DNA of 64,000 nt from an uncultured Spirochaetota bacterium (GCA_903821875.1 CAIJMU010000146.1:1-64000), one strand, 5' to 3'; counted from the stretch's first letter, positions 1,733-21,415 are shown. Numbers and translations: made by a program. Notes: generated from the sequence alone by a model not told the origin.

Positions 1733-3985
1733 TTGAGAAGATTCTGGGAAGCCATGCTGCGGAAGAGCCTCTGGGTCGTGCTGGCCTTCGCCCTGGTAAC
1801 AGTGGTCATGGTGGTCGGAGCCAAGCGGATAGTGAAGGACACCTCCGCCGAGGCCATGAATCCCGACCACAACGCCATCGTGGAGTTGAATGACAGCATC
1901 AACAGGGATTTCAATGTGGGGAGGAACGAGATCTTCGTGCTCCATGCCGACAGCGTGTTCACGCCGAAACATCTGACCGAAATCCGTGCGATCACCGCTG
2001 GACTCGAGGCGGTCCACGGCGTCAAGAAAGTCACGAGCCTTACCAACGCCTCGCGCCTTGTTGAATCGGACGGCGTGCTCAGCTCAGGGGACATGGTGCC
2101 GGCCGACAACCCGGGTGAAGAGGAGATAGCGGGCATACGACGCTATCTTGATACCAATTACCTCTTCAAGTCGGGATTCCTGGCGGCCCGGGACGGCAGT
2201 TCGACCAACATAGTCGTGGAGTTCGAGGACAGTGCCGACCTTCCGACCATCATGGCCGACATGGTGCGACCCGTGGAAGCCCACTGGACCAGCACCTACG
2301 ACCTTACGGGCATCCCCTCCCTCGAAAGCTACCTCCTTGACGCGGTGAAGATCGACCTGCCCTTCCTCGGTGGCCTGGCGATCTTCGTAATACTGCTCAT
2401 GTTCGTTATCAATTACCGCTCCTTCCTCGGCGTCTGGCTTCCCCTCCTCCAGATCCTCGTGGGCCTGGTCTGGGGCGCGGGCAGTTTCGGCTGGATCGGG
2501 ATGAAGTTCCAGTCCCTCACCATAATTGCACCCATCGCCATACTCGCAGTCGGAAGCTCCTTCTCCCTCCACCTCCTGGGGCGTTACTTCCTCGAGCTGT
2601 CGCGGGGCAGGGAAAAGCGGAAGGCCATCCTGGAGGTCATGAACCACACAGCCCTCGGGGTCTTTGTCTCGGGTCTCGCCATCACCGCCTCGATGCTTAC
2701 CTTCCTCCTGTCGGACCTCGGCATGGTGCGGGGGCTGGGACTCTTCAGTGCCCTCGGCGTCTTCGCTGCGATGATTTCCTCGTTGACCCTTTTTCCGGCC
2801 CTCCTCCAGATCCTGCCCGCGCCGAAGGTACGCGTGAGGCTCGAGGAGGGTGGCGGCCTCGGCAAGGCGCTCGGGGGGCTCGGGCGCTGGATCGCCGCCC
2901 GTCCGAAGGCTGTCCTTGGCAGCGGCGCTGCCCTCCTCCTCGTGGCCTCCTTTGGGATATTCCTCATAGTACCCAATACCTCCCTGATCGGCTTCGTCCG
3001 CCCGGATTCCTCGGTCATCCTGGGCATGAAGGCCGTGGACAAGGCCTTCGGCGGTTCAACCTCAGCGAGGATGCTCGTCGACGGGGACCTCCACGATCCG
3101 GAGCTCCTCAAGGCCCTCCTGGCCTATCAGGAAGACGTTCGCTCGATACCCGGGGTAGGGCCTTCGACCTCAATAGCAACCCTCATGCGTACCCTCCATG
3201 AGACCCTCACCGGCGAGGCAGGCATGCCCCAGACCCAGAACCTTGTTGCCCAGGAGCTCCTGGTCTACGAATCCTCAGGCAGCGTCGACGACCTCACATC
3301 GCTGGTCAATCTCGACTTTACCCAGGGCATTGTCACCTTCATTACGCCACGGCTTTCTACCCACGAAACGAAGGCCCTCTTTGCTAAGCTCCAGCAACGC
3401 GCGGACCTCATCATCGGCGACAGGGCCCTTTTCCAGTTTGCAGGCGATGTCCTCACGGAAACGGCCATCGAGGCTGTCATCATCCGCGACTTCATCATCA
3501 GCCTTACCCTGGCCCTCGCCCTGGTCATCCTCATCGACAGCCTCATCAGGAGCCTCAGGGCGGCCCTCGTGACCATCATAGTCCTGGCTTCCACCATCAT
3601 CCTGCAGTACGGCGTCATGGGCCTTGCGGGCCTTCCCTTCAACCTGGCGACAGCCCTCGCAGGAGCCCTGGCCATCGGGGTGGGCGACTATGCCATCCAC
3701 CTCACGGTCCGCTACATGGAGGACCGGAAAAGCGGACTTTCCCCCGAGGAAGCCATCGCGACCGCCCTCTCCACCTCGGGACGCTCGGTAGCCTTTACGG
3801 CCATGACCATCGGTGGCGGCTTCACGGCCCTGATTTTCAGTCGCATCATGCCCGTCGCGACCCTCGGTGGCGTGATGGTCCTCACCGTGGTCCTCGTCGG
3901 AGCGGCCACCCTCACACTCCTGCCGGCAGCCTGCGTGCTGTTCCTCAGGAATCCCCAGAAGACCAAAGGAGGTCAAATATCATGA
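1733..3985 (+). CDS. RND/MMPL-family transporter
   Basis: A 750-residue inner-membrane protein with the duplicated RND layout: TM1 (~8-28), a large periplasmic loop, TM2-6 (~205-365), TM7 (~385-410), a second loop, and TM8-12 (~580-740). It resembles the MMPL/Patched-like exporters of lipids or hydrophobic compounds rather than the larger AcrB pumps. The start chosen is TTG at 1733, seven bases after AAGGAG (1720-1725). An in-frame TTG at 1706 lies inside the operator and has no ribosome binding site, and the nearby ATG at 1728 is out of frame. The stop overlaps the next start (ATGA). With the LolA-like and beta-barrel genes it probably forms an envelope export route. Confidence 0.9.
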   Translation: MRRFWEAMLRKSLWVVLAFALVTVVMVVGAKRIVKDTSAEAMNPDHNAIVELNDSINRDFNVGRNEIFVLHADSVFTPKHLTEIRAITAGLEAVHGVKKVTSLTNASRLVESDGVLSSGDMVPADNPGEEEIAGIRRYLDTNYLFKSGFLAARDGSSTNIVVEFEDSADLPTIMADMVRPVEAHWTSTYDLTGIPSLESYLLDAVKIDLPFLGGLAIFVILLMFVINYRSFLGVWLPLLQILVGLVWGAGSFGWIGMKFQSLTIIAPIAILAVGSSFSLHLLGRYFLELSRGREKRKAILEVMNHTALGVFVSGLAITASMLTFLLSDLGMVRGLGLFSALGVFAAMISSLTLFPALLQILPAPKVRVRLEEGGGLGKALGGLGRWIAARPKAVLGSGAALLLVASFGIFLIVPNTSLIGFVRPDSSVILGMKAVDKAFGGSTSARMLVDGDLHDPELLKALLAYQEDVRSIPGVGPSTSIATLMRTLHETLTGEAGMPQTQNLVAQELLVYESSGSVDDLTSLVNLDFTQGIVTFITPRLSTHETKALFAKLQQRADLIIGDRALFQFAGDVLTETAIEAVIIRDFIISLTLALALVILIDSLIRSLRAALVTIIVLASTIILQYGVMGLAGLPFNLATALAGALAIGVGDYAIHLTVRYMEDRKSGLSPEEAIATALSTSGRSVAFTAMTIGGGFTALIFSRIMPVATLGGVMVLTVVLVGAATLTLLPAACVLFLRNPQKTKGGQIS

Positions 3986-4734
3986 CTAGGTCAATCTTCC
4001 CCGCCATCGCGCTCGCTCTCGTCTCGACGCTCCCCCTCGCCGCCCAGGGACTTACCGGGCCCGAGATCATGGACAGGCACTTCCACAAGGCCAAGCCCGG
4101 AACCCTCGTCATGACAATGTCCATGACAATTACCAAGAACGGCAAGAACCTCTCGCGCTCCATGACCACCTGGGGCATGGGCGACAATGCCAAGGGCGAG
4201 GTGGAACGCAAGCTCATCAAGTTCCTCGCGCCGGGAGACATCAAGGGTTCGGGCTTCCTCTCGTCCAAGAAGGTGGATGGCTCGACGGAGAGCCAGCTCT
4301 GGCTCCCCGCCATGGGAAAGGTGAGGCGGCTTTCGTCGGGGGCTTCTGACCAGGACCAGGCCTTCTTCGGCTCGGACTTCACCAACCGCGATATTTCAGG
4401 CTTTGTCGAGGCGGAGTTCACGTATGATCTCAAGGGCGAGGAGGAGGGTGCCTTCATCGTCGAGGCGAAACCCAGGTCCCAGATGACCTACGAGCGCCTC
4501 GTCTATCGTATCGATACGAAGGACTTCGGCGCCAGGCGGATCGACTACTGGAAGGGTGGCAAGCTCTTCAAGTACCAGACCCTGGCCTACACCGAGGTCG
4601 ATGGCTTCGCCCTTCCTTCACGCATCCTGATGACCGCCTCCTCGGGCTCCACGACCGAGATCAGGCTCAGCGAGCAGAAGGTCGGCCAGGACTTCGGTGA
4701 CCAGGTCTTCACCGAACGATTTCTCAAGCAGTAG
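3982..4734 (+). CDS. Outer-membrane lipoprotein-sorting (LolA-like) protein
   Basis: A 250-residue protein with an N-terminal signal peptide (hydrophobic stretch ~5-20, cleavage expected near AAQ-G). The body is typical of the LolA-like periplasmic proteins annotated as outer membrane lipoprotein-sorting protein, which bind acyl chains in a half-barrel. These are often encoded beside MMPL transporters, as here. The ATG overlaps the exporter stop by four bases, so the two are translationally coupled. Likely role: a periplasmic carrier for the exporter's substrate. The cargo cannot be named. Confidence 0.82.
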   Translation: MTRSIFPAIALALVSTLPLAAQGLTGPEIMDRHFHKAKPGTLVMTMSMTITKNGKNLSRSMTTWGMGDNAKGEVERKLIKFLAPGDIKGSGFLSSKKVDGSTESQLWLPAMGKVRRLSSGASDQDQAFFGSDFTNRDISGFVEAEFTYDLKGEEEGAFIVEAKPRSQMTYERLVYRIDTKDFGARRIDYWKGGKLFKYQTLAYTEVDGFALPSRILMTASSGSTTEIRLSEQKVGQDFGDQVFTERFLKQ

Positions 4735-4742
4735 GTACACTG

Positions 4743-5987
4743 ATGAAAACAATACTGTCCTTTCTGCTCGGCCTGTCCCTGGCTGCAGGCTCCTTTCTCG
4801 GTGCCCAGGAGTTTGCCGGAACCCTCAGTTCCGGGCTCGGGTGGTGGGTCCAGGGCCATTCCATCCTTCCGACAGCAGTCCTGTTCGAGTCAGGAATCAA
4901 GGGTACGCTCGGGGACGGGGCGAATCCTGCGGCCCAGTATCTCGCCCGAGTCCGTGTTGGCTTCGACTCGACACCCGGCAGCGCCAGCCCGACTGCCGCG
5001 ACTTCCATGGCGCTCGACGAGGCCTGGATCAAGGTCTTCCTCGGGCCACTGGACTTCTGTCTGGGAAACCAGGTGGTAGCCTGGGGTGCCACCGATGCCT
5101 TCGCGCCCATCGATATCGTGAATCCGCTGGACCTTAGCCTTCCTGTTGCCTCGCGAAAGCTTCCGACAGCCATGGGACGCGTGATCCTCAACGGCCAGGG
5201 TTTCTCCCTCGACCTTGTCGCGCTTCCGGTCTGGGCAGCCTCCCTCCTGCCAGATACCCGCTGGCAGACTGCCACCGCGAGCTTCACGCCTCCCACAGGG
5301 ATCGTAGTCGATTCGCGTAATGTGGTGACAGACACACCCCAAGCCATCTGGGACAATACCCAGTATGGCGGCCGCCTCGCCGCAAGCCTCGAGGTCTTCC
5401 AGGGCTGGGACCTCGGCTTCTCGTATTTCCACGGCATCGCCACCACCCCGACGGCGAGCACTGCGATGCAGGTGGTCTCTCCCGGACACGTGACTGTCAC
5501 AGTTACCAAGAGTTTTGACCGCTACAGCCTGCTGGGCTTCGACACAGCCCTTGCCCTCGAGGGGGGGCTCCTTCTCAAGGGTGAGGCGGCCTACCGTCTC
5601 CTGGACGGAGGGGACTGGCTTGAGCCTGCGGCTGGACTTGCAAGCGCAACTGGCGTGGGAGGTCTCGAGTACAGGATCGCAGGCATCAAGGCAATTGGTG
5701 AATTTGCCCTCGACTGGGCCAAGGGTGCCACGAGCGCGGATGACAGCCTGGACAAGACCCTCATCGTCGCCCTCAGCGCCGATCCAGACTCAAGCCTCTC
5801 GCTCAAGCTGCGCGCAGGCTACAGCTTCGATGGCAGCTACTTTGCCTCGCCGGAAATGGCCTACACCATAACGGACGGATTGAAGGCCAGCCTGAGCGGC
5901 TATGCCTTCTTCGGCGAAACGGGAACCCGCTTCGGAGAGTGGAAGGACAACGACCTCGCCGAGTTCAAGCTGTCGTATTCATTTTAG
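4743..5987 (+). CDS. Probable outer-membrane beta-barrel protein
   Basis: A 414-residue protein with a signal peptide (cleavage near LGAQ-E), alternating hydrophobic/polar strands, many Gly and aromatic residues, and a C-terminal Phe (KLSYSF) typical of Bam-assembled barrels. It lies 8 bases after the LolA-like gene and is the last gene of the tetR-controlled block, consistent with an outer-membrane exit or receptor for the RND system. It resembles DUF1302-type barrel proteins in overall character, but this was not verified. The 3' end overlaps the convergent MFS gene by four bases. Confidence 0.75.
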   Translation: MKTILSFLLGLSLAAGSFLGAQEFAGTLSSGLGWWVQGHSILPTAVLFESGIKGTLGDGANPAAQYLARVRVGFDSTPGSASPTAATSMALDEAWIKVFLGPLDFCLGNQVVAWGATDAFAPIDIVNPLDLSLPVASRKLPTAMGRVILNGQGFSLDLVALPVWAASLLPDTRWQTATASFTPPTGIVVDSRNVVTDTPQAIWDNTQYGGRLAASLEVFQGWDLGFSYFHGIATTPTASTAMQVVSPGHVTVTVTKSFDRYSLLGFDTALALEGGLLLKGEAAYRLLDGGDWLEPAAGLASATGVGGLEYRIAGIKAIGEFALDWAKGATSADDSLDKTLIVALSADPDSSLSLKLRAGYSFDGSYFASPEMAYTITDGLKASLSGYAFFGETGTRFGEWKDNDLAEFKLSYSF

Positions 5988-14897: not shown

Positions 14898-16694
14898 ATG
14901 AATGAGCAATCCAGCCACACGGCAAAAAAGACCCTCAAGCTTGGAACCAAGATAGTAGTCATGACGCTGGCGGCTGTCGTTCTTGCCGTCACGGCGGGCA
15001 TAGTCGTCCAGCGGAGCGTCATCAGGAGCCAGGGCATCACGATGACTCTGGCTACCATGCGGGCGGCCATCCTCGAAGCCGAGAGCACGAGGGCCTCCAT
15101 CTCGGCCCTCAACAGCCTGGGAGCCTTCGACCAGAAAAAACTAATGGAGGACTTCAAGCAGAGCGGCGAGCTCCGTGCCTCCGCCCTTTACAAGACCGTT
15201 CCTGTTGTTGCCGCCTGGACCGCCATCCAGAAAGTGGCCGAGCAGGAGGGCTATGAGTTCCGCATACCCAAGCATCAGGCACGCAACGCCAAGAACCTTC
15301 CCACCGCTGCCGAGGAGCTCTTCCTCGTGGAGCTTGAGAAAGGCAAGCGGGCGGACTATTTCGTGGCCGACGAGGCGAGCGACACCATCCTCTACGCCAG
15401 GCCCATCGTCCTGTCCGAGGACTGCCTTGCCTGCCACGGGGATCCACGCACGAGCCCGACCGGCGACGGCAAGGACAAGATCGGCTTCACCATGGAAGGC
15501 TGGAAGGCGGGGGAGGTCCATGGCGCCTTCGTCCTCAAGACCGGTTTCTCCCGCCTCAACGCAGTCATCGCCGCGGGCATGTTCCAGACCATCGGATGGG
15601 TCGTACCGCTCGCCATACTCATAGCAATTGTATTCTTCTTTTTCATCAGGCGTTCCATCGCTGCTCCCATCGGCGAAAGCGTCAAGATGACCGTGCTCCT
15701 CGCCGGGGGCGACTTTTCGCGGGAAGTACCTGCGGCGCTCCTTGACCGTGGAGACGAACTAGGGGAACTCGGGCGCGGTTTCCAGGGGATGATCGCAAAC
15801 ACTCGCAAGCTCCTCGAGGACGTCGCGGGAGGTGTGAAGACCCTCGTGGACTCTGCTGCGAACCTTTCGGAAGTCTCCGAAACCACGGCCGAGTCAGTGC
15901 ACTCAGTATCCGAAAAGACCCAGACGGTAGCGGTTGCGGCCGAGGAGGCGAGCGCCAACACCCAGTCAGTCGCGGCCAGCATGGAAGAGGCGGCGACAAA
16001 TCTCTCCTCGGTGGCTGCCGCCACCGAGGAGATGAGTTCCACCGTGGCCGAGATCGCCGGCAACTCCGACCGTGCCCGGAAGATCAGCGAGGAGTCTACC
16101 ACCCAGGTGCGCTCCATCACCGAGCTCATGCAGCAGCTCGGAAAGGCCGCCAAGGAAATCGGAAAGGTCACCCAGACCATCACCGATATCTCCTCGCAGA
16201 CCAACCTCCTTGCACTCAACGCCACAATCGAGGCAGCCCGCGCCGGCGCTGCCGGCAAGGGCTTTACCGTGGTCGCCAACGAGATCAAGGAACTCGCCCG
16301 CCAGACTGCAGCCGCCACCGAAGACATCAAGCTCAAGATCGCGGGTGTCCAGGATTCTGCCGATCATGTCATCGGCGACATCCACAAGGTAGCGGATGTG
16401 ATCAAGGACGTCGGTGACATCGTCGCGAGCATTGCCGCATCGATTGAGGAGCAGGCCTCTGTCACGAGGGAAGTGGCCGAGAACATCGCCCAGGCTTCGC
16501 TGGGGGTACGCGATGCCAACGAGCGCGTTGCCCAGACCGCGAGCGTCTCGGCCTCGATCGCCCGCGACATGGCTGGCATCAACAGCTCCATGGGAGTCAT
16601 TGGCGAGGGAGGCGAGCGGGTTCGCACGAGCACGGATGAACTCGGCAGCCTCGCCGAGCAGCTTGAGTCAACTGTTGGGAAGTTCAAGACCTGA
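14898..16694 (+). CDS. Methyl-accepting chemotaxis protein with a c-type heme sensor domain
   Basis: A 598-residue receptor: TM1 (~18-38); a periplasmic domain (~40-225) of the Tll0287/DUF3365 type with a CLACH heme-attachment motif at 176-180; TM2 (~231-250); a HAMP region (~250-305); and a cytoplasmic signalling domain with the conserved hairpin tip (~430-470, QTNLLALNATIEAARAG). CxxCH covalently binds heme c in this family, so the receptor probably senses redox state, oxygen, NO or another heme ligand and feeds CheA/CheW. It is monocistronic: 197 bases without a gene precede it and a strong terminator follows. GGGAG lies before the ATG. Confidence 0.93.
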   Translation: MNEQSSHTAKKTLKLGTKIVVMTLAAVVLAVTAGIVVQRSVIRSQGITMTLATMRAAILEAESTRASISALNSLGAFDQKKLMEDFKQSGELRASALYKTVPVVAAWTAIQKVAEQEGYEFRIPKHQARNAKNLPTAAEELFLVELEKGKRADYFVADEASDTILYARPIVLSEDCLACHGDPRTSPTGDGKDKIGFTMEGWKAGEVHGAFVLKTGFSRLNAVIAAGMFQTIGWVVPLAILIAIVFFFFIRRSIAAPIGESVKMTVLLAGGDFSREVPAALLDRGDELGELGRGFQGMIANTRKLLEDVAGGVKTLVDSAANLSEVSETTAESVHSVSEKTQTVAVAAEEASANTQSVAASMEEAATNLSSVAAATEEMSSTVAEIAGNSDRARKISEESTTQVRSITELMQQLGKAAKEIGKVTQTITDISSQTNLLALNATIEAARAGAAGKGFTVVANEIKELARQTAAATEDIKLKIAGVQDSADHVIGDIHKVADVIKDVGDIVASIAASIEEQASVTREVAENIAQASLGVRDANERVAQTASVSASIARDMAGINSSMGVIGEGGERVRTSTDELGSLAEQLESTVGKFKT

Positions 16695-16769
16695 ACAGAC
16701 CATAGCCTTTTTCAAGGAAACGGAAAGAAAAAAAGAGAAGCGCTAAGTCATTGCCAGCATAGAATTAAA

Positions 16770-16800
16770 GCTCCGGGCGAATCCGGGGCTTTTCTTTTCC
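16770..16800 (+). terminator. Rho-independent terminator after the chemotaxis receptor
   Basis: A stem GCTCCGG / CCGGGGC (16770-16776 with 16783-16789) and a six-base loop are followed by TTTTCTTTTCC. It lies 75 bases after the receptor stop and just outside the integrated element. Confidence 0.85.
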
Positions 16801-16829
16801 CTTCCCTTCTATTGCTTCCCTAGCCTTCC

Positions 16830-16861
16830 TTTTGTAGACTCAGTGTAGACGGCATGTAGAC
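16830..16861 (+). repeat. 11-bp-phased repeat cluster 1 (three TGTAGAC units), left end
   Basis: TTTTGTAGAC opens the cluster; TGTAGAC then recurs at 16833, 16844 and 16855, exactly 11 bp apart. It lies just before the integrase ribosome binding site. Homologous clusters sit at 18305-18354 and 20591-20611. One helical turn of spacing suggests a site for a protein that binds one DNA face (integrase arm, excisionase or Rep). Confidence 0.8.
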
Positions 16862-16872
16862 GGGAGGCGGCA

Positions 16873-17934
16873 ATGGGAGTCCATGTTAGGGTGAAACGCG
16901 GCAAGCTCTACCTTGACGTCTACACCGGCGGGAGGCGGACATGGGAAGCGCTTCACATGACCCTGAGCGGGGACAAGCAGACCGACAAGGAAATGATGAG
17001 GACGGCCGCTATCGTGAAGGGGAGGCGGGAGCTGGCGCTAGCCTCCGGGGAACAAGGCATCATTGACCCGGCGGCGGGCAGGAAGTCACTGGCGGCCTAC
17101 GCGAAGGAGCTAGGGGAGCGCGCGCGGTATCAGTCATTCAAGACCTGCGTGCCCCACATAGTGGAGTTCGCGGGCAGCCTTACGCTGGGGGCGGTGACGG
17201 AGCGGACGGTAGAAGCCTTTCAAGACTTCCTTCGGAGCCAGAAGCTTTCTCTGTCCACCTGCGCGCGGTTTGACGCCTTCTTTCGGCAGGTTCTCAAAAC
17301 CGCAGTCCGGGACCGGTTGATACCGCGCTCCCCCGCCGGTGGAGTGAAGACCATCAAAGCCCCGGACGCGGAAAGGACCATCCTCACGCAAGCCGAATTC
17401 GCGGCGCTTGTGCGGACTCCGGTAGGCGGGACGCTTGGGGCGGACGTGAAGCGGGCTTTCCTATTCGGGTGCATGACCGGCTTGCGGGTATCGGACTTGA
17501 AGCGCGCCACATGGGGAAACATTGTCCGGGAGCCTGTCCTTTCAATCAACATGACCATGCAGAAAACCGGCAAGACAATCCTTGTCCCCTTGAATCCTGG
17601 GGCCTGGGGATTGATAAAGGACTCACAGACCCTTGACCGCGCGGAGCCGCTATTCCCTGTTGTCGCGGGGACAAAGACGAACCCGACAAAGTACCTCAAG
17701 GCATGGGCGGCAGCGGCGGGGCTGACACGCCCGCTCGGTTTCCATGACGCTAGGCGGGCTTTTGCCAGTTGGACACTCGCTGCGGGGGCGGACGCTACCA
17801 CGGTGCAACGGCTTTTAGGTCACTCGAAAATCAGCATGACAGCATTGTACGCAAAGACGGGCGCGGCAGCCTTCAGGGCGGCGGTGGACTCGCTACCGGC
17901 GCTGGACATGACCGAAAGGCAGGCGGGGGCATGA
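16873..17934 (+). CDS. int: Tyrosine recombinase (phage-type integrase)
   Basis: A 353-residue site-specific recombinase. An N-terminal arm/SAM-like DNA-binding region (~1-155) precedes the catalytic domain. Visible catalytic residues are Arg in TGLRVSDLK, His and Arg in HDARRAF, His in LLGHSK and the nucleophile Tyr in TALYAK. GGGAGG lies five bases before the ATG. It would cut and join the element at its att site. Its stop overlaps the next start (ATGA). The repeat cluster directly upstream may be an arm-type binding site or a promoter operator. Confidence 0.95.
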   Translation: MGVHVRVKRGKLYLDVYTGGRRTWEALHMTLSGDKQTDKEMMRTAAIVKGRRELALASGEQGIIDPAAGRKSLAAYAKELGERARYQSFKTCVPHIVEFAGSLTLGAVTERTVEAFQDFLRSQKLSLSTCARFDAFFRQVLKTAVRDRLIPRSPAGGVKTIKAPDAERTILTQAEFAALVRTPVGGTLGADVKRAFLFGCMTGLRVSDLKRATWGNIVREPVLSINMTMQKTGKTILVPLNPGAWGLIKDSQTLDRAEPLFPVVAGTKTNPTKYLKAWAAAAGLTRPLGFHDARRAFASWTLAAGADATTVQRLLGHSKISMTALYAKTGAAAFRAAVDSLPALDMTERQAGA

Positions 17935-18308
17935 GCGAAACCGAGGAAGGGCCGGACCCGGTACCGAAGTCAAGAATTGAGAAACGCTACGCTCGCGCGC
18001 GGGAGAATTGGAACCATGCACTGAACCCTATGCGAGAGTTCATTGACACGCTCGCGGGACCGGACCCGGAGGGCGCATCCCCGGTGACCGCCCCGGACCC
18101 TGCCCCGCTGCCCTCGCCTCCGGTGAAGCTCAATATTCGCGGAGGCCTGAAGGACCTCGCGGTCATGCTTTTGAAGCTCGAGAACGAGGGGACAATTGAC
18201 CATGTGACCGACAAGCAGGCGGCGGAGTTATTCACAGTCCGGGGCGCTCCGGTGAACCCCGACAGTCTGAAAAGCGTGCGAAACGCCAACTTCGGAGGGT
18301 CAAGGTAA
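17931..18308 (+). CDS. Element protein of unknown function (125 aa)
   Basis: Translationally coupled to the integrase by ATGA overlap. The first half is charged and Pro-rich (PDPAPLPSPP); the second half (~65-125) contains a helical segment ending KSVRNANF, and the region DKQAAELFTVRGAPVNPDSL resembles a small helical DNA- or protein-binding unit. No known family is recognised. Its position between integrase and the HTH gene suggests an accessory role in excision or replication control. The 3' end overlaps the second phased repeat cluster. Confidence 0.7.
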   Translation: MSETEEGPDPVPKSRIEKRYARARENWNHALNPMREFIDTLAGPDPEGASPVTAPDPAPLPSPPVKLNIRGGLKDLAVMLLKLENEGTIDHVTDKQAAELFTVRGAPVNPDSLKSVRNANFGGSR

Positions 18309-18354
18309 ACCCTCGGGAAACAAATACCCATGCTTTTGTAAACTCTAGGTAAAC
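18305..18354 (+). repeat. 11-bp-phased repeat cluster 2 (GTAAAC units), before the excisionase-like gene
   Basis: GTAAAC occurs at 18305, 18338 and 18349, with GGAAAC at 18316: four of five successive 11-bp phases. The part TTTTGTAAAC (18334-18343) matches TTTTGTAGAC of the outer clusters at 9 of 10 bases. It ends 62 bases before the HTH gene start. Confidence 0.7.
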
Positions 18355-18415
18355 ATAATTAGTACGTAAAAGGGCTAGCTTTATCCTATCGCTAGAAGCG
18401 AAAGGAGAAGCAAGC

Positions 18416-18658
18416 ATGTCTGACAATGCAAAGCCCGAAGGGGCACCCCTCACCATGCGGGAGGCGGCGGCCTACCTCGGCATGAAACCGTCCTATTGTT
18501 ACAAATTGGTCATGCGGGGCCGACTGCCCTGCTACCGCCCCAACGGAGGCAAGCTCTACTTCACCCGTGCAGACCTCGAGGCCTTCACCCTCCGGGGACG
18601 GCGGAGCGCGGACTTTGAGCTGAATGCGAAGGTGGACGCGCTCGGGGGCCGGGCATGA
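18416..18658 (+). CDS. Excisionase-family helix-turn-helix DNA-binding protein
   Basis: An 80-residue protein. Residues ~12-60 match the MerR-like excisionase/HTH_17 fold: LTMREAAAYLGMKPSYCYKL, then a wing RGRLPCYRPNGGKLYF and the ending TRADLEAF. AAAGGAGAAG precedes the ATG. In integrated elements such proteins steer excision or repress transcription by bending DNA at repeated sites. The phased GTAAAC repeats just upstream are the obvious candidate target. The stop overlaps the next start. Confidence 0.88.
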   Translation: MSDNAKPEGAPLTMREAAAYLGMKPSYCYKLVMRGRLPCYRPNGGKLYFTRADLEAFTLRGRRSADFELNAKVDALGGRA

Positions 18659-19206
18659 CGCGGCCTGATTACGTGTACCGCTTCACGCGGCACCGGACAG
18701 ACGGACAGGGAACGCGTTTTGACCTCACCGGGTGGCACGGGCCGGGATGCTATGCGCCTCTCGTTTGTCCACTGAAGCGGACCGGGGAGCCTGTCCTTTA
18801 CGTGAACCGCTGGCGGGTGAAGGAAGGCGCCGCCCCGGACCCGCGCAAGGGCGGGCTGATACTCGCGGCACCGGGCAAGGCGAAGGGCGAAAAGGGCCGG
18901 AATGTTTCCAGCATATTCGAGCCTTCCCCTGATCATCCGGGGCGGGGCTATGGGGACATTGGACCGCGCAAGGATGCAATCTTGACCATCCGGGACGAGG
19001 AAGCCGGGACGCTGACCGTCCTCGTCTTTCTCAAGCTCGGGCAGCAAGCTGAGACGCTTTTCCTCTCGTGGCTTGACGGTGGAGTGGCGGAGGAAGTGGC
19101 TGCCCCGGCGCTCCTCACGTTTGAAACCCTCAAACCCTCAGACTTCCAATGCTTAGATAACAATGTGCAGTTCGCATCAAATATTGATACAGAGCCTGAA
19201 ATATGA
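18655..19206 (+). CDS. Element protein of unknown function (183 aa)
   Basis: The start overlaps the HTH gene stop (ATGA). It is a soluble, basic-to-mixed protein with no signal peptide or membrane segment; it has many Gly/Pro turns and two hydrophobic strand-like stretches (AILTIRDEE, LTVLVFLKLG). The C-terminal 30 residues are richer in A+T codons than the rest. It precedes the Rep-like gene with overlapping ends, so it may help replication, for example as a single-strand-binding protein, but nothing in the sequence proves this. Confidence 0.65.
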   Translation: MTRPDYVYRFTRHRTDGQGTRFDLTGWHGPGCYAPLVCPLKRTGEPVLYVNRWRVKEGAAPDPRKGGLILAAPGKAKGEKGRNVSSIFEPSPDHPGRGYGDIGPRKDAILTIRDEEAGTLTVLVFLKLGQQAETLFLSWLDGGVAEEVAAPALLTFETLKPSDFQCLDNNVQFASNIDTEPEI

Positions 19207-20093
19207 TGGACTCCCTGAGCGTGTTCCTACCGGGTGCCCTTGCCCCGCTGGACCGGCTTGCGGGCCTCCGCCCTCTCCGGCAGGACGGGTGCTATCGGGG
19301 CACGCTCGGGAACCTCCGCGTCATTCAAGGGCTGGACGCTGTCTTTGTGGAGGGGAGCCTCCCAAAGTACCTGAACGGGGGGAACGCGCTGCCCTTGACC
19401 CGGCAAGGCCTCCGTGCCGCCCTCGGGAAGCTGGAAGCGGAAAGCGGCATGGACCTGGGGAAGGGCCAGGTCTACCGGCTCGAGGTGGGCCGGACCCTCC
19501 CAGTCAAAGCGCCTCCGCGAGAGTACCTTGCAGCATGGGGACCGCTGGCGCGCTTCGGCAAGCATACCCACGGCAACGGCGGGACCGTCACGTTTGCCAA
19601 TGGAGGCCGGAGCTTCAGCGGGTACGACAAGGGCCAGGAAACCGCCCCGGAGGCCCTGCCCTGCCCTCTGGACGGGGGCTTCGCCCTCCGGCTTGAGCTG
19701 CGCTGGAAGCGGGGCCTGAAGCGTGTTTTCGGCCATCCTGTCAGCCCGTGGGAGCTGGCGGAGGCGGACAACTACGTGTTGGCGGCAAAGGCATGGGCGG
19801 CTCTCTACTTCAAGGTGCCCAAGCAACGGGAGGTTGTACTAATTATGAACGGAATGACACCGAAGGGCTTCAAGGATACGCTTGCGGCTCTAGGGCTTCA
19901 GGCCCTCGGGCTGGACAGGGCCGAAACCATCATCCGGGACGGCCTCGCCTCCGGGGCGCTGGACCGGCTGAAGGCTTCAAGGATGCGCGCGGACCTCCGG
20001 GAGCTGGCGAAGGATTCGCGGGTGACTACCACGGAAGCATTGACGGATGAAATTGACTCGAAGGTCCGGGCAATTGCGCGGTTCGCACGTTGA
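19203..20093 (+). CDS. Replication initiator-like protein (filamentous-phage gene II/X, Phage_CRI-like)
   Basis: A 296-residue protein. The N-terminal half has features I associate with the phage/plasmid replication proteins of the gene II/X (Phage_CRI) group: FVEGSLPKYLNGGN (~52-65), YRLEVGRTL (~90-98) and GYDKGQE (~138-144). The C-terminal third is helical. Such proteins nick a double-strand origin to begin rolling-circle replication. The start overlaps the preceding stop. The family call rests on motif memory, not a search; a related rolling-circle Rep family is the main alternative. Confidence 0.6.
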   Translation: MMDSLSVFLPGALAPLDRLAGLRPLRQDGCYRGTLGNLRVIQGLDAVFVEGSLPKYLNGGNALPLTRQGLRAALGKLEAESGMDLGKGQVYRLEVGRTLPVKAPPREYLAAWGPLARFGKHTHGNGGTVTFANGGRSFSGYDKGQETAPEALPCPLDGGFALRLELRWKRGLKRVFGHPVSPWELAEADNYVLAAKAWAALYFKVPKQREVVLIMNGMTPKGFKDTLAALGLQALGLDRAETIIRDGLASGALDRLKASRMRADLRELAKDSRVTTTEALTDEIDSKVRAIARFAR

Positions 20094-20143
20094 ACGCTAA
20101 GATACTACGCGAAGAAACGCGGAGAAAACGCGGAGGGGGACCA

Positions 20144-20572
20144 ATGACGAAAGGCACGCGGGGGAAACCGTTTACGAAAGGCAACCCCGGAGGCGGGCGG
20201 AAAAAGATACCGGCCTCCGTGACTGAAGCTTGCAGGTTACTCACTGAAGACGCGATAGGGGTACTAAAAAAGATACTCTTGAATGAGCTGGCACGGGACG
20301 CGGACCGGCTCCGCGCGGCGGAGGCCCTTCTCAACCGAGGCTGGGGAATGCCCTCACAGTCTCTCGAGCTGTTGAAGGCGGATGTTCAAGAAATGCCTCG
20401 CGTGATAACGGTGCAAATTATTGATCCACGCGCAGAGGATGAGCTTTCCGAACCCTTTCGCGCCTCACCGAACCCTTGCGAGTCTTCGCCGAAGACCCGC
20501 GCGCAAGAGCCTGAGAAACTGGCGGTGAAGCCCCGGCGGGCAGGTCCGGGTGTTCGGGACTTCATGTCTTGA
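20144..20572 (+). CDS. DUF5681-like phage-associated protein (142 aa)
   Basis: The ATG at 20144 follows GGAGGGGG by four bases and is preferred over the in-frame TTG at 20090. The N-terminus (KPFTKGNPGGGRKK) looks like the Gly/Lys signature of DUF5681 proteins found next to phage terminase genes. Residues ~25-75 form a helical region (ACRLLTEDAIGVLKKILL...RLRAAEALLNRGW). The tail is Pro/Ser-rich. No large terminase accompanies it here. A DNA-binding or packaging-adaptor role is plausible but inferred. Confidence 0.65.
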   Translation: MTKGTRGKPFTKGNPGGGRKKIPASVTEACRLLTEDAIGVLKKILLNELARDADRLRAAEALLNRGWGMPSQSLELLKADVQEMPRVITVQIIDPRAEDELSEPFRASPNPCESSPKTRAQEPEKLAVKPRRAGPGVRDFMS

Positions 20573-20575
20573 AGC

Positions 20576-20594
20576 GGGCTTTTGCCCTGCTTTT
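20576..20594 (+). terminator. Short hairpin after the last element gene
   Basis: GGGC-TTTT-GCCC (20576-20587) is followed by TGCTTTT, four bases after the last stop. The stem is short, so termination would be weak. Its T-run is shared with the first bases of repeat cluster 3. Confidence 0.4.
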
Positions 20595-20611
20595 GTAGAC
20601 GGTTTGTAGAC
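20591..20611 (+). repeat. 11-bp-phased repeat cluster 3 (two TGTAGAC units), right end
   Basis: TTTTGTAGAC at 20591-20600 is identical to the start of cluster 1. TGTAGAC recurs at 20594 and 20605, 11 bp apart, in the same orientation as cluster 1. It lies beyond the last element gene and marks the probable right end region. Confidence 0.75.
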
Positions 20612-20890
20612 GGAGCTTTGGGCATCATAGGCAATTCATTGTATGGAAACATATTATTACAATTGGGCGTACTCAAGACCTGAGTATGCCTGATTGCTAT
20701 AATGGTATTATTTTGAGCCGGAATTGCTAGTCGGGCTTTTTGCCTAGTCTGAAAGGAGTACGCGAAAGCCAGGAGGGCATCTCTCTGGGGGGGGGGGCGG
20801 TGTCAGCCCCAACTCGATGCCCCAAACGTGCGGGCATTTGTGAGGGCCCAAACTGGGCGGCCTGTGTTTGAATTTGAGGCCGACAGCACA
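20612..20890. other. Non-coding stretch between the element and the Rpn relic
   Basis: No gene seen. It is more A+T-rich than its surroundings up to about 20730. It holds an imperfect inverted repeat at 20666-20690 (GGCGTACTCA / TGAGTATGCC, 9 of 10 pairs, five-base spacer) and an uninterrupted run of 11 G at 20787-20797. Either the true right att site or host promoter DNA may be here. Confidence 0.6.
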
Positions 20891-21415
20891 TCAAAGTTCT
20901 TCGATCTCCTTCTGGCTTAGCCCGGTCGCCTTTTCGATGATGTCCACCGTCACACCTAGATGCATGAGGTTGCGTGCCGCTTCGCGCTTCCCCTCGAGCT
21001 TCCCATCACGCTCACCCTCGGCCCGGGCTTCCTCGATGTAGGTAGCCTGGTCGTGCAGCCATTTCTGACGGGCTTCGTACTCGTACATGAGTTCGGGGTT
21101 ATCATGGAATTTCTGGTATGCTTCATCGACTTCGGCAAAGAACTTGTCGTGTTCTGTAAGAGCCTCGATCATGGCGGGGTTGCCTCCTTCCCGCTCCAGC
21201 AACTGTTACAAGTTCACGAGTCGGCCGCAATCAGGGCTCCGATCCATCAAGGGGATTTCGAGGGTGACCAGTGTTGCCTGATCTGTCAGGACAAAACGTT
21301 TTTCCGGATCGGAATCCTCGATGTCGGCTATCCTGCAGACTTTCATAAAACGCGGCTTGTCCTTTCTCATTTTGCTACAGGAGCCACGCGAGGCTTGCGC
21401 CGAGTTAGGGCTCAC
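20891..21415 (-). pseudogene. Broken Rpn-family (PD-(D/E)XK nuclease/putative transposase) gene
   Basis: Two open stretches (21415-21209 and 21205-20891) lie in the same frame and are separated by one TAA at 21208-21206. Joined, they read as the C-terminal ~170 residues of an Rpn-family protein: FVLTDQATLVTLEIPL, then YEYEARQKWLHDQ, the charged EEARAEGERDGKLEGKREAARN helix and a final helix. The N-terminal catalytic part is missing, because the arsC gene begins upstream. So the gene has both an in-frame nonsense codon and a 5' deletion. A TTG at 21202 could restart the tail but would make no nuclease. Confidence 0.8.

Follow-up and report, generated by a model that had tools for sequence, protein, structure and literature searches.

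What kind of unit is a compact block of genes that pairs a tyrosine integrase with a filamentous-phage-type Rep, and carries neither capsid nor conjugation genes? Such a block lies in the stretch of 64,000 nucleotides from an uncultured Spirochaetota bacterium that was analysed here, which we will call the window. The original prediction left two possibilities side by side, an integrated rolling-circle plasmid and a phage satellite that borrows the particles of another phage. The first is well supported by Rep (its family, motifs and fold), by the att sites and by a circular relative, as well as by the recurrence of the gene order elsewhere. The second has little support. The block is probably a minimal integrative rolling-circle element of the plasmid/IME type.

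Gene content and ends of the element

Six intact ORFs, all on the plus strand, span 16873-20572 of the window (Table 1). The original prediction of six co-directional genes is correct in place and strand, but their description as overlapping is only partly right because, besides 4-nt overlaps between several neighbouring ORFs, there are gaps of 107 nt 5' of the HTH gene and 50 nt 5' of the last gene. In profile searches, the tyrosine integrase and the excisionase-like HTH protein were identified as predicted, and the other four window proteins have no significant family match when searched singly. The integrase residues R205, K231, H291, R294, H317, and Y326 are all present in an alignment with two relatives, and the HTH_17 protein has homologues in the relatives L017 and L034. 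ORF2 and P4, expected to match nothing known, indeed hit no family. ORF2 was considered RteC-like by eye, which was rejected for want of profile support. P4 is predicted to be beta-rich, a fold search of the PDB gave no significant match to it, and its gene is located directly 5' of rep in most relatives examined. The DUF5681 or packaging-adaptor resemblance claimed for the last gene stays below threshold in profile searches, and its PHROG matches are weak. No Zot, capsid, or conjugation genes were found in the elements by ORF and profile searches, in agreement with the absence of capsid and conjugation genes noted at the outset, and a search for RNA families found none.

The GTAAAC-type tandem repeats 5' of the excisionase gene are a possible operator or origin. 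They resemble the TGTAGAC arm-type sites of the integrase and have the same 11-bp period, so a shared regulator or origin is possible.

The ends first given for the block, 16830-20611, are too narrow. The longest repeat between its two outer regions is the 11-bp sequence TCAAGACCTGA, and a repeat of at least 11 bp arose in 3 of 500 shuffles in which both sides were shuffled. The left copy is made up of the last codons, stop included, of a methyl-accepting chemotaxis protein (MCP) gene, and the core ends at this stop codon. From core to core the element measures 3,989 bp. The core-to-left-arm spacing is 149 bp in the window and 147 bp in L034, and the right arm-to-core spacing is 68 bp in the window, 70 bp in L034, and 71 bp in L017. 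The terminator hairpin of the element lies 83 bp past the core, compared with 78 bp for its counterpart in L034 (2528-2557). Since the repeat, the arm-site spacing, and the terminator position agree, the element is placed at about 16684-20683. The element therefore has direct repeats at both ends, lies at the 3' end of a gene, and has its integrase gene adjoining one end, as an integrative element does. The two att copies (16680-16698 and 20666-20690) are inverted repeats about the common AGACC centre, with arms that differ between the copies.

An empty site was sought in relatives through the target gene, the right flank, and the joined-site pattern, and no orthologous locus was found; the ends of the window element thus rest on the 11-bp repeat and the spacing. 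The target also differs, being the MCP gene here and tRNA genes in the relatives with mapped ends, and ARAGORN finds no tRNA gene within the 64 kb. The hairpin with a T run in the right flank is probably the original terminator of the target gene, displaced by the insertion. Just beyond the right end, 20891-21415 looks by eye like the remnant of an Rpn/PD-(D/E)XK-type gene, and similar DNA occurs elsewhere in the genome.

The element is present as a single copy in its own genome and its GC content (0.607) equals that of the window (0.610), which would suit an immobile, domesticated block or a chance cluster of genes with no present mobility. However, the ORFs and catalytic residues are intact, att repeats are present, the distribution is patchy, and one relative is circular, all of which make this reading very unlikely.

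Table 1. Features of the element and its surroundings in the window, and sizes of the complete relatives
Feature	Position or size	Strand	Details
Methyl-accepting chemotaxis protein (MCP) gene, target	14898-16694	+	ORF list; identity by eye
attL core TCAAGACCTGA	16684-16694	+	11-bp direct repeat; centred in GTTCA-AGACC-TGAAC
Terminator hairpin of element	16767-16792	+	11-pair stem, T-rich tail; downstream of target gene
Left arm-type sites	16833-16861	+	three TGTAGAC repeats, 11-bp period; same pattern in L034 and L017
Int	16873-17934	+	tyrosine integrase, 353 aa; PF00589 2e-21, PF13102 2e-9
ORF2	17931-18308	+	no family match; C-terminal part common with L034, 55% over 91 aa
GTAAAC-type tandem repeats	18303-18356	+	11-bp period; 5' of excisionase gene; kept in L034 (4250-4310)
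HTH_17 excisionase-like protein	18416-18658	+	80 aa; PF12728 5e-12; TIGR01764 above cut-off
P4	18655-19206	+	183 aa; no family match
Rep	19203-20093	+	Phage_CRI/Rep_trans-type rolling-circle initiator, 296 aa; D3, E94, Y141, K143, R163, E165
DUF5681/KGG-like small protein	20144-20572	+	alternative TTG start at 20090; weak terminase-small-subunit-like resemblance
Right arm-type sites	20594-20611	+	two TGTAGAC repeats, 11-bp period
attR core TCAAGACCTGA	20673-20683	+	11-bp direct repeat; centred in GGCGTACTCA-AGACC-TGAGTATGCC
Hairpin with T run, right flank	20714-20744	+	sequence and fold
L017 (Spirochaetales SZUA-475)	about 4.4 kb		tRNA 3'-end repeats
L019	about 4.8 kb		tRNA 3'-end repeats
L026	about 10.2 kb		tRNA 3'-end repeats
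L023	about 11.4 kb, bounded at about 1141 and 12540		tRNA-Met 3'-end repeats

The initiator protein

When the window Rep was queried alone against family profiles, no significant match was obtained. Its homologues, on the other hand, are recognised: of the nine family members that were aligned, seven hit Pfam PF05144 (Phage_CRI) at E<=1, with a best value of 8e-9, and five of these seven, together with two further relatives, exceed the PF05144 gathering score when scanned singly. The Rep-like call made on the 296-aa protein is thus upheld through clear homologues and not through the window protein itself. A PDB sequence search using the Rep alignment returned nothing significant.

Rep_trans/Phage_CRI proteins share an N-terminal D and the motifs RxD, T/SxY/ExG, YxKxxE, and W/LxRxE (PMC5714925, PMC4797284). 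The corresponding positions in the window Rep are D3, R92-L-E94, T128-V-T130, Y141-D-K143-G-Q-E146, and R163-L-E165, with RxE (E94) in motif I where the family has RxD. The catalytic D3, Y141, K143, R163, and E165, and likewise T128, are identical in all 15 aligned relatives, and E94 in 14 of the 15. The motif pattern of these initiators is therefore represented by D3, E94, Y141-K143-E146, and R163-E165.

In an AlphaFold2 model (pLDDT 77, pTM 0.67), Rep is predicted to adopt the crescent beta-sheet fold, and the top PDB matches of the model are the RCR initiator RepDE and a relative. The Z scores against the three solved plasmid RCR initiators are 12.0 (4cwe), 11.6 (4cwc), and 10.9 (4cij), and the next entry scores 6.7. 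Given the Phage_CRI matches, the motifs, and this fold, the possibility raised in the original prediction that the Rep-like protein has an unrelated fold is not borne out. Judged by its sequence and its modelled structure, the 296-aa protein is a rolling-circle initiator. A search for the nick site by codon conservation in rep revealed no outstanding stretch (the longest common exact run is 15 nt), and no dso or oriT was identified for the element.

The best viral structural match of the Rep model is an Inoviridae G2P, and this proximity is in favour of a phage satellite, which would excise and replicate on infection by a helper and travel in the particles of another phage. A filamentous phage could package it as ssDNA, or packaging could go through the small terminase-like protein encoded after rep. 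A precedent is RS1 of CTXphi, a satellite of a filamentous phage (PMC11389934). The DUF5681/KGG-like gene following rep also has sub-threshold matches to terminase small subunits, and small proteins of this class are found 3' of rep in several relatives (two in L034, and also in L031 and L023). However, these terminase matches remain below threshold, no capsid gene was recognised in any relative examined, and no Zot/pI was found in the window element, the L034 circle, or 12 element-bearing genomes. Across the order, Zot matches are confined to 10 of 294 genomes; they are weak, and the ORFs concerned all measure 521-785 aa and may not encode pI at all. T4SS coupling proteins are commoner there (46 of 294). 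The carrier genome itself has no match to Zot or T4SS coupling protein families, and therefore no resident helper of those kinds was found. On this evidence, a satellite seems unlikely.

Known satellites differ from the element in further ways. Those of the RS1 type likewise combine Rep with integration and have no particle genes, whereas the window element has its own tyrosine integrase and no resident filamentous helper was found. In PICIs, int is accompanied by a small gene for an HTH regulator/excisionase, by rep, and, at the end, by a small gene of the terminase-like kind. The window element has the same plan, but with an RCR-type Rep in place of primase-type replication and with a terminase resemblance that is below threshold.

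A probable circular relative and the proposed cycle

The relative L034 is a 5,615-bp IMG/VR contig (IMGVR_UViG_3300012931_000783) that starts and stops within rep and has an exact terminal overlap of 123 bp, giving a circle of 5,492 bp. Assemblers turn a circle into a contig with a terminal overlap, and L034 is probably, as far as its sequence tells, the free circular form, with the reservation that a terminal overlap may also arise from a tandem array. A search of IMG/VR for further circles with other Rep subfamilies returned L034 again and no other. L034 has the gene order and strand of the window: int, ORF2, xis, P4, and rep come first, and of the two DUF5681/KGG-like ORFs behind them, the second is homologous to the last gene of the window, so that all six genes recur in the same order. 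It has in addition a reverse-strand ORF of 233 aa with no assigned function. The tblastn identities between L034 and the window are 49% for Int, 55% for part of ORF2, 50% for Xis, 51% for P4, 75-81% for pieces of Rep, and 61% over 74 aa for part of the last gene; in the alignment, the two Reps are ~76% identical. The attP core of L034, GAGTCCTGCCCCTGCTA, resembles the 3' end of tRNA-Met and is located between two sets of arm repeats.

The pairing of a Phage_CRI-type Rep with an integrase could also be what is left of a filamentous prophage after the loss of its structural genes, since inoviruses are able to integrate and have sizes of 5-20 kb (PMC6813254). This origin is very unlikely, because the same reduced gene set is present in L034 and L017, the int-xis-P4-rep core is found again in divergent hosts and in a second phylum, and repeated loss of identical genes is not to be expected. 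The recurrence of the set and of its core indicates instead that the reduced form itself is the unit that spreads. The element resembles Inoviridae in its Rep family (Phage_CRI, G2P) and in the small circular genome, and differs from them in having no detected pI/Zot or coat genes and in possessing its own tyrosine integrase and HTH_17 excisionase.

For the preferred reading, a minimal integrative rolling-circle element, a cycle can be drawn up from what is established about tyrosine integrases and Phage_CRI initiators. What the sequence shows is the gene content, the att repeats with the geometry of the arm sites, the catalytic residues, the predicted fold, and the existence of a circular relative that has these genes too; we infer that Int, Xis, and Rep are active and that the role of Rep is replication. 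Int would insert the circle, about 3,989 bp in size, into the 3' end of the MCP gene, an event that would retain the stop codon of this gene and bring in a new terminator. Excision would be carried out by Int together with the HTH excisionase. Rep would then nick one strand via Y141 and drive rolling-circle copying of the circle, which could reintegrate afterwards. The most speculative step, proposed by analogy, is that Rep also acts as a relaxase, such that the element would move through the conjugation channel of a helper; Rep might serve transfer in this way because initiators of the RCR type can also work as relaxases in ICEs and IMEs (PMC5704250).

Among described systems, Streptococcus IMEs carry RCR-initiator-type relaxases of the MobT/Rep_trans, Rep_2, and PHA00330 kinds (PMC5704250). 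The window element and its family are like them in several respects: each has its own integrase at one end, the insertion site is the 3' terminus of a tRNA or protein gene, no enzyme for replication/transfer is present other than an RCR initiator, a coupling protein is often missing, and cargo is swapped. It differs in that its Rep is on the Phage_CRI side of the superfamily, the hosts are Spirochaetota and Margulisbacteria, the conserved P4 has no recognised fold, and any mobilisation of the element is putative. The initiator fold and active-site motifs are also those of pT181-type Rep_trans plasmids (RepD and RepSTK1 structures), but these plasmids stay free, while the window element integrates.

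Distribution, cargo and novelty

In the order, 14 of the 294 genomes searched have Rep matches, the last two being marginal, as do 6 of 393 genomes in a phylum-wide sample. Of 59 near-relative genomes searched, a single one has Rep in addition to the genome that the window comes from, and it is absent from the one genome of the same genus. The original prediction allowed that the block might never be bounded, or might never be absent, in close relatives; it is both bounded and missing from most relatives. A search of named phages gave no relatives, and a search of plasmids gave one weak partial match, in a Parabacteroides plasmid.

In the relatives, the tyrosine integrase gene directly follows a tRNA gene (Met, Leu, Ala, Thr, Asn, or Val), and in four complete relatives the boundaries are tRNA 3'-end repeats, 17 bp long at the shortest and at least 40 bp at the longest (Table 1). 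In L017, a 17-bp direct repeat from the 3' end of tRNA-Met encloses the TGTAGAC-type repeats. The core common to the family consists of int, a small HTH gene, P4, and rep, to which the Treponema type usually adds a protein of 55-65 aa. In Candidatus Termititenax (Margulisiibacteriota), the element L031 (157-6180) keeps this gene order, running int, HTH, a small ORF, P4, rep, and one further small ORF, and adjoins tRNA-Asn. Its Rep groups in the tree with the Treponema Reps, at a fork that does not reach the starred level of support.

Neither integrative elements that use RCR initiators nor the filamentous-phage type of Rep is new. For the combination seen here, its hosts, P4, and the defence cargo, no description was found in the open-access literature, the scope of the search. 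Small integrative RCR-initiator elements have been documented mainly in Firmicutes, and the plan is now extended to Spirochaetota and Margulisbacteria. This family pairs the plan with a phage-type initiator in elements as small as 4 kb, its defence systems are interchangeable, and metagenomes contain what is likely a natural circle of it. How an element spreads with neither capsid nor conjugation genes could be tested in this compact system.

The defence genes lie inside bounded relatives: Hachiman HamA (E 1e-131) and HamB (1e-223) at 2549-5593 of the tRNA-Met-bounded L023, and a reverse transcriptase, with retron type VI as its best PADLOC match and an HTH protein adjoining, at 5418-6609 of L026. 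One could imagine a family of minimal elements, spanning phyla, in which P4 together with the DNA-binding-like protein encoded after rep would constitute a packaging or transfer module. Its members would then be satellites of an unknown helper and would spread exchangeable antiphage systems, Hachiman and the retron-type RT, among spirochaetes and their neighbours; we hold this to be quite unlikely.

Other genes accompany rep elsewhere. A similar small cysteine-containing protein, recognised by eye and with no family match, is encoded beside rep in the distant relatives L018 (6875-7318) and L052 (7281-7607). The close relative L016 (6477-7675) has an intact rep (Rep 74%), a shortened P4, and no integrase that could be found, and is probably a decayed copy. 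A DnaA-domain ATPase (PF00308, 8e-41) is encoded a few hundred bases 3' of rep in L029 (4509-5291). In the distant relative L051 (7296-9849), a ParA-type ATPase with a small downstream ORF lies beside rep, a plasmid-like partition trait.
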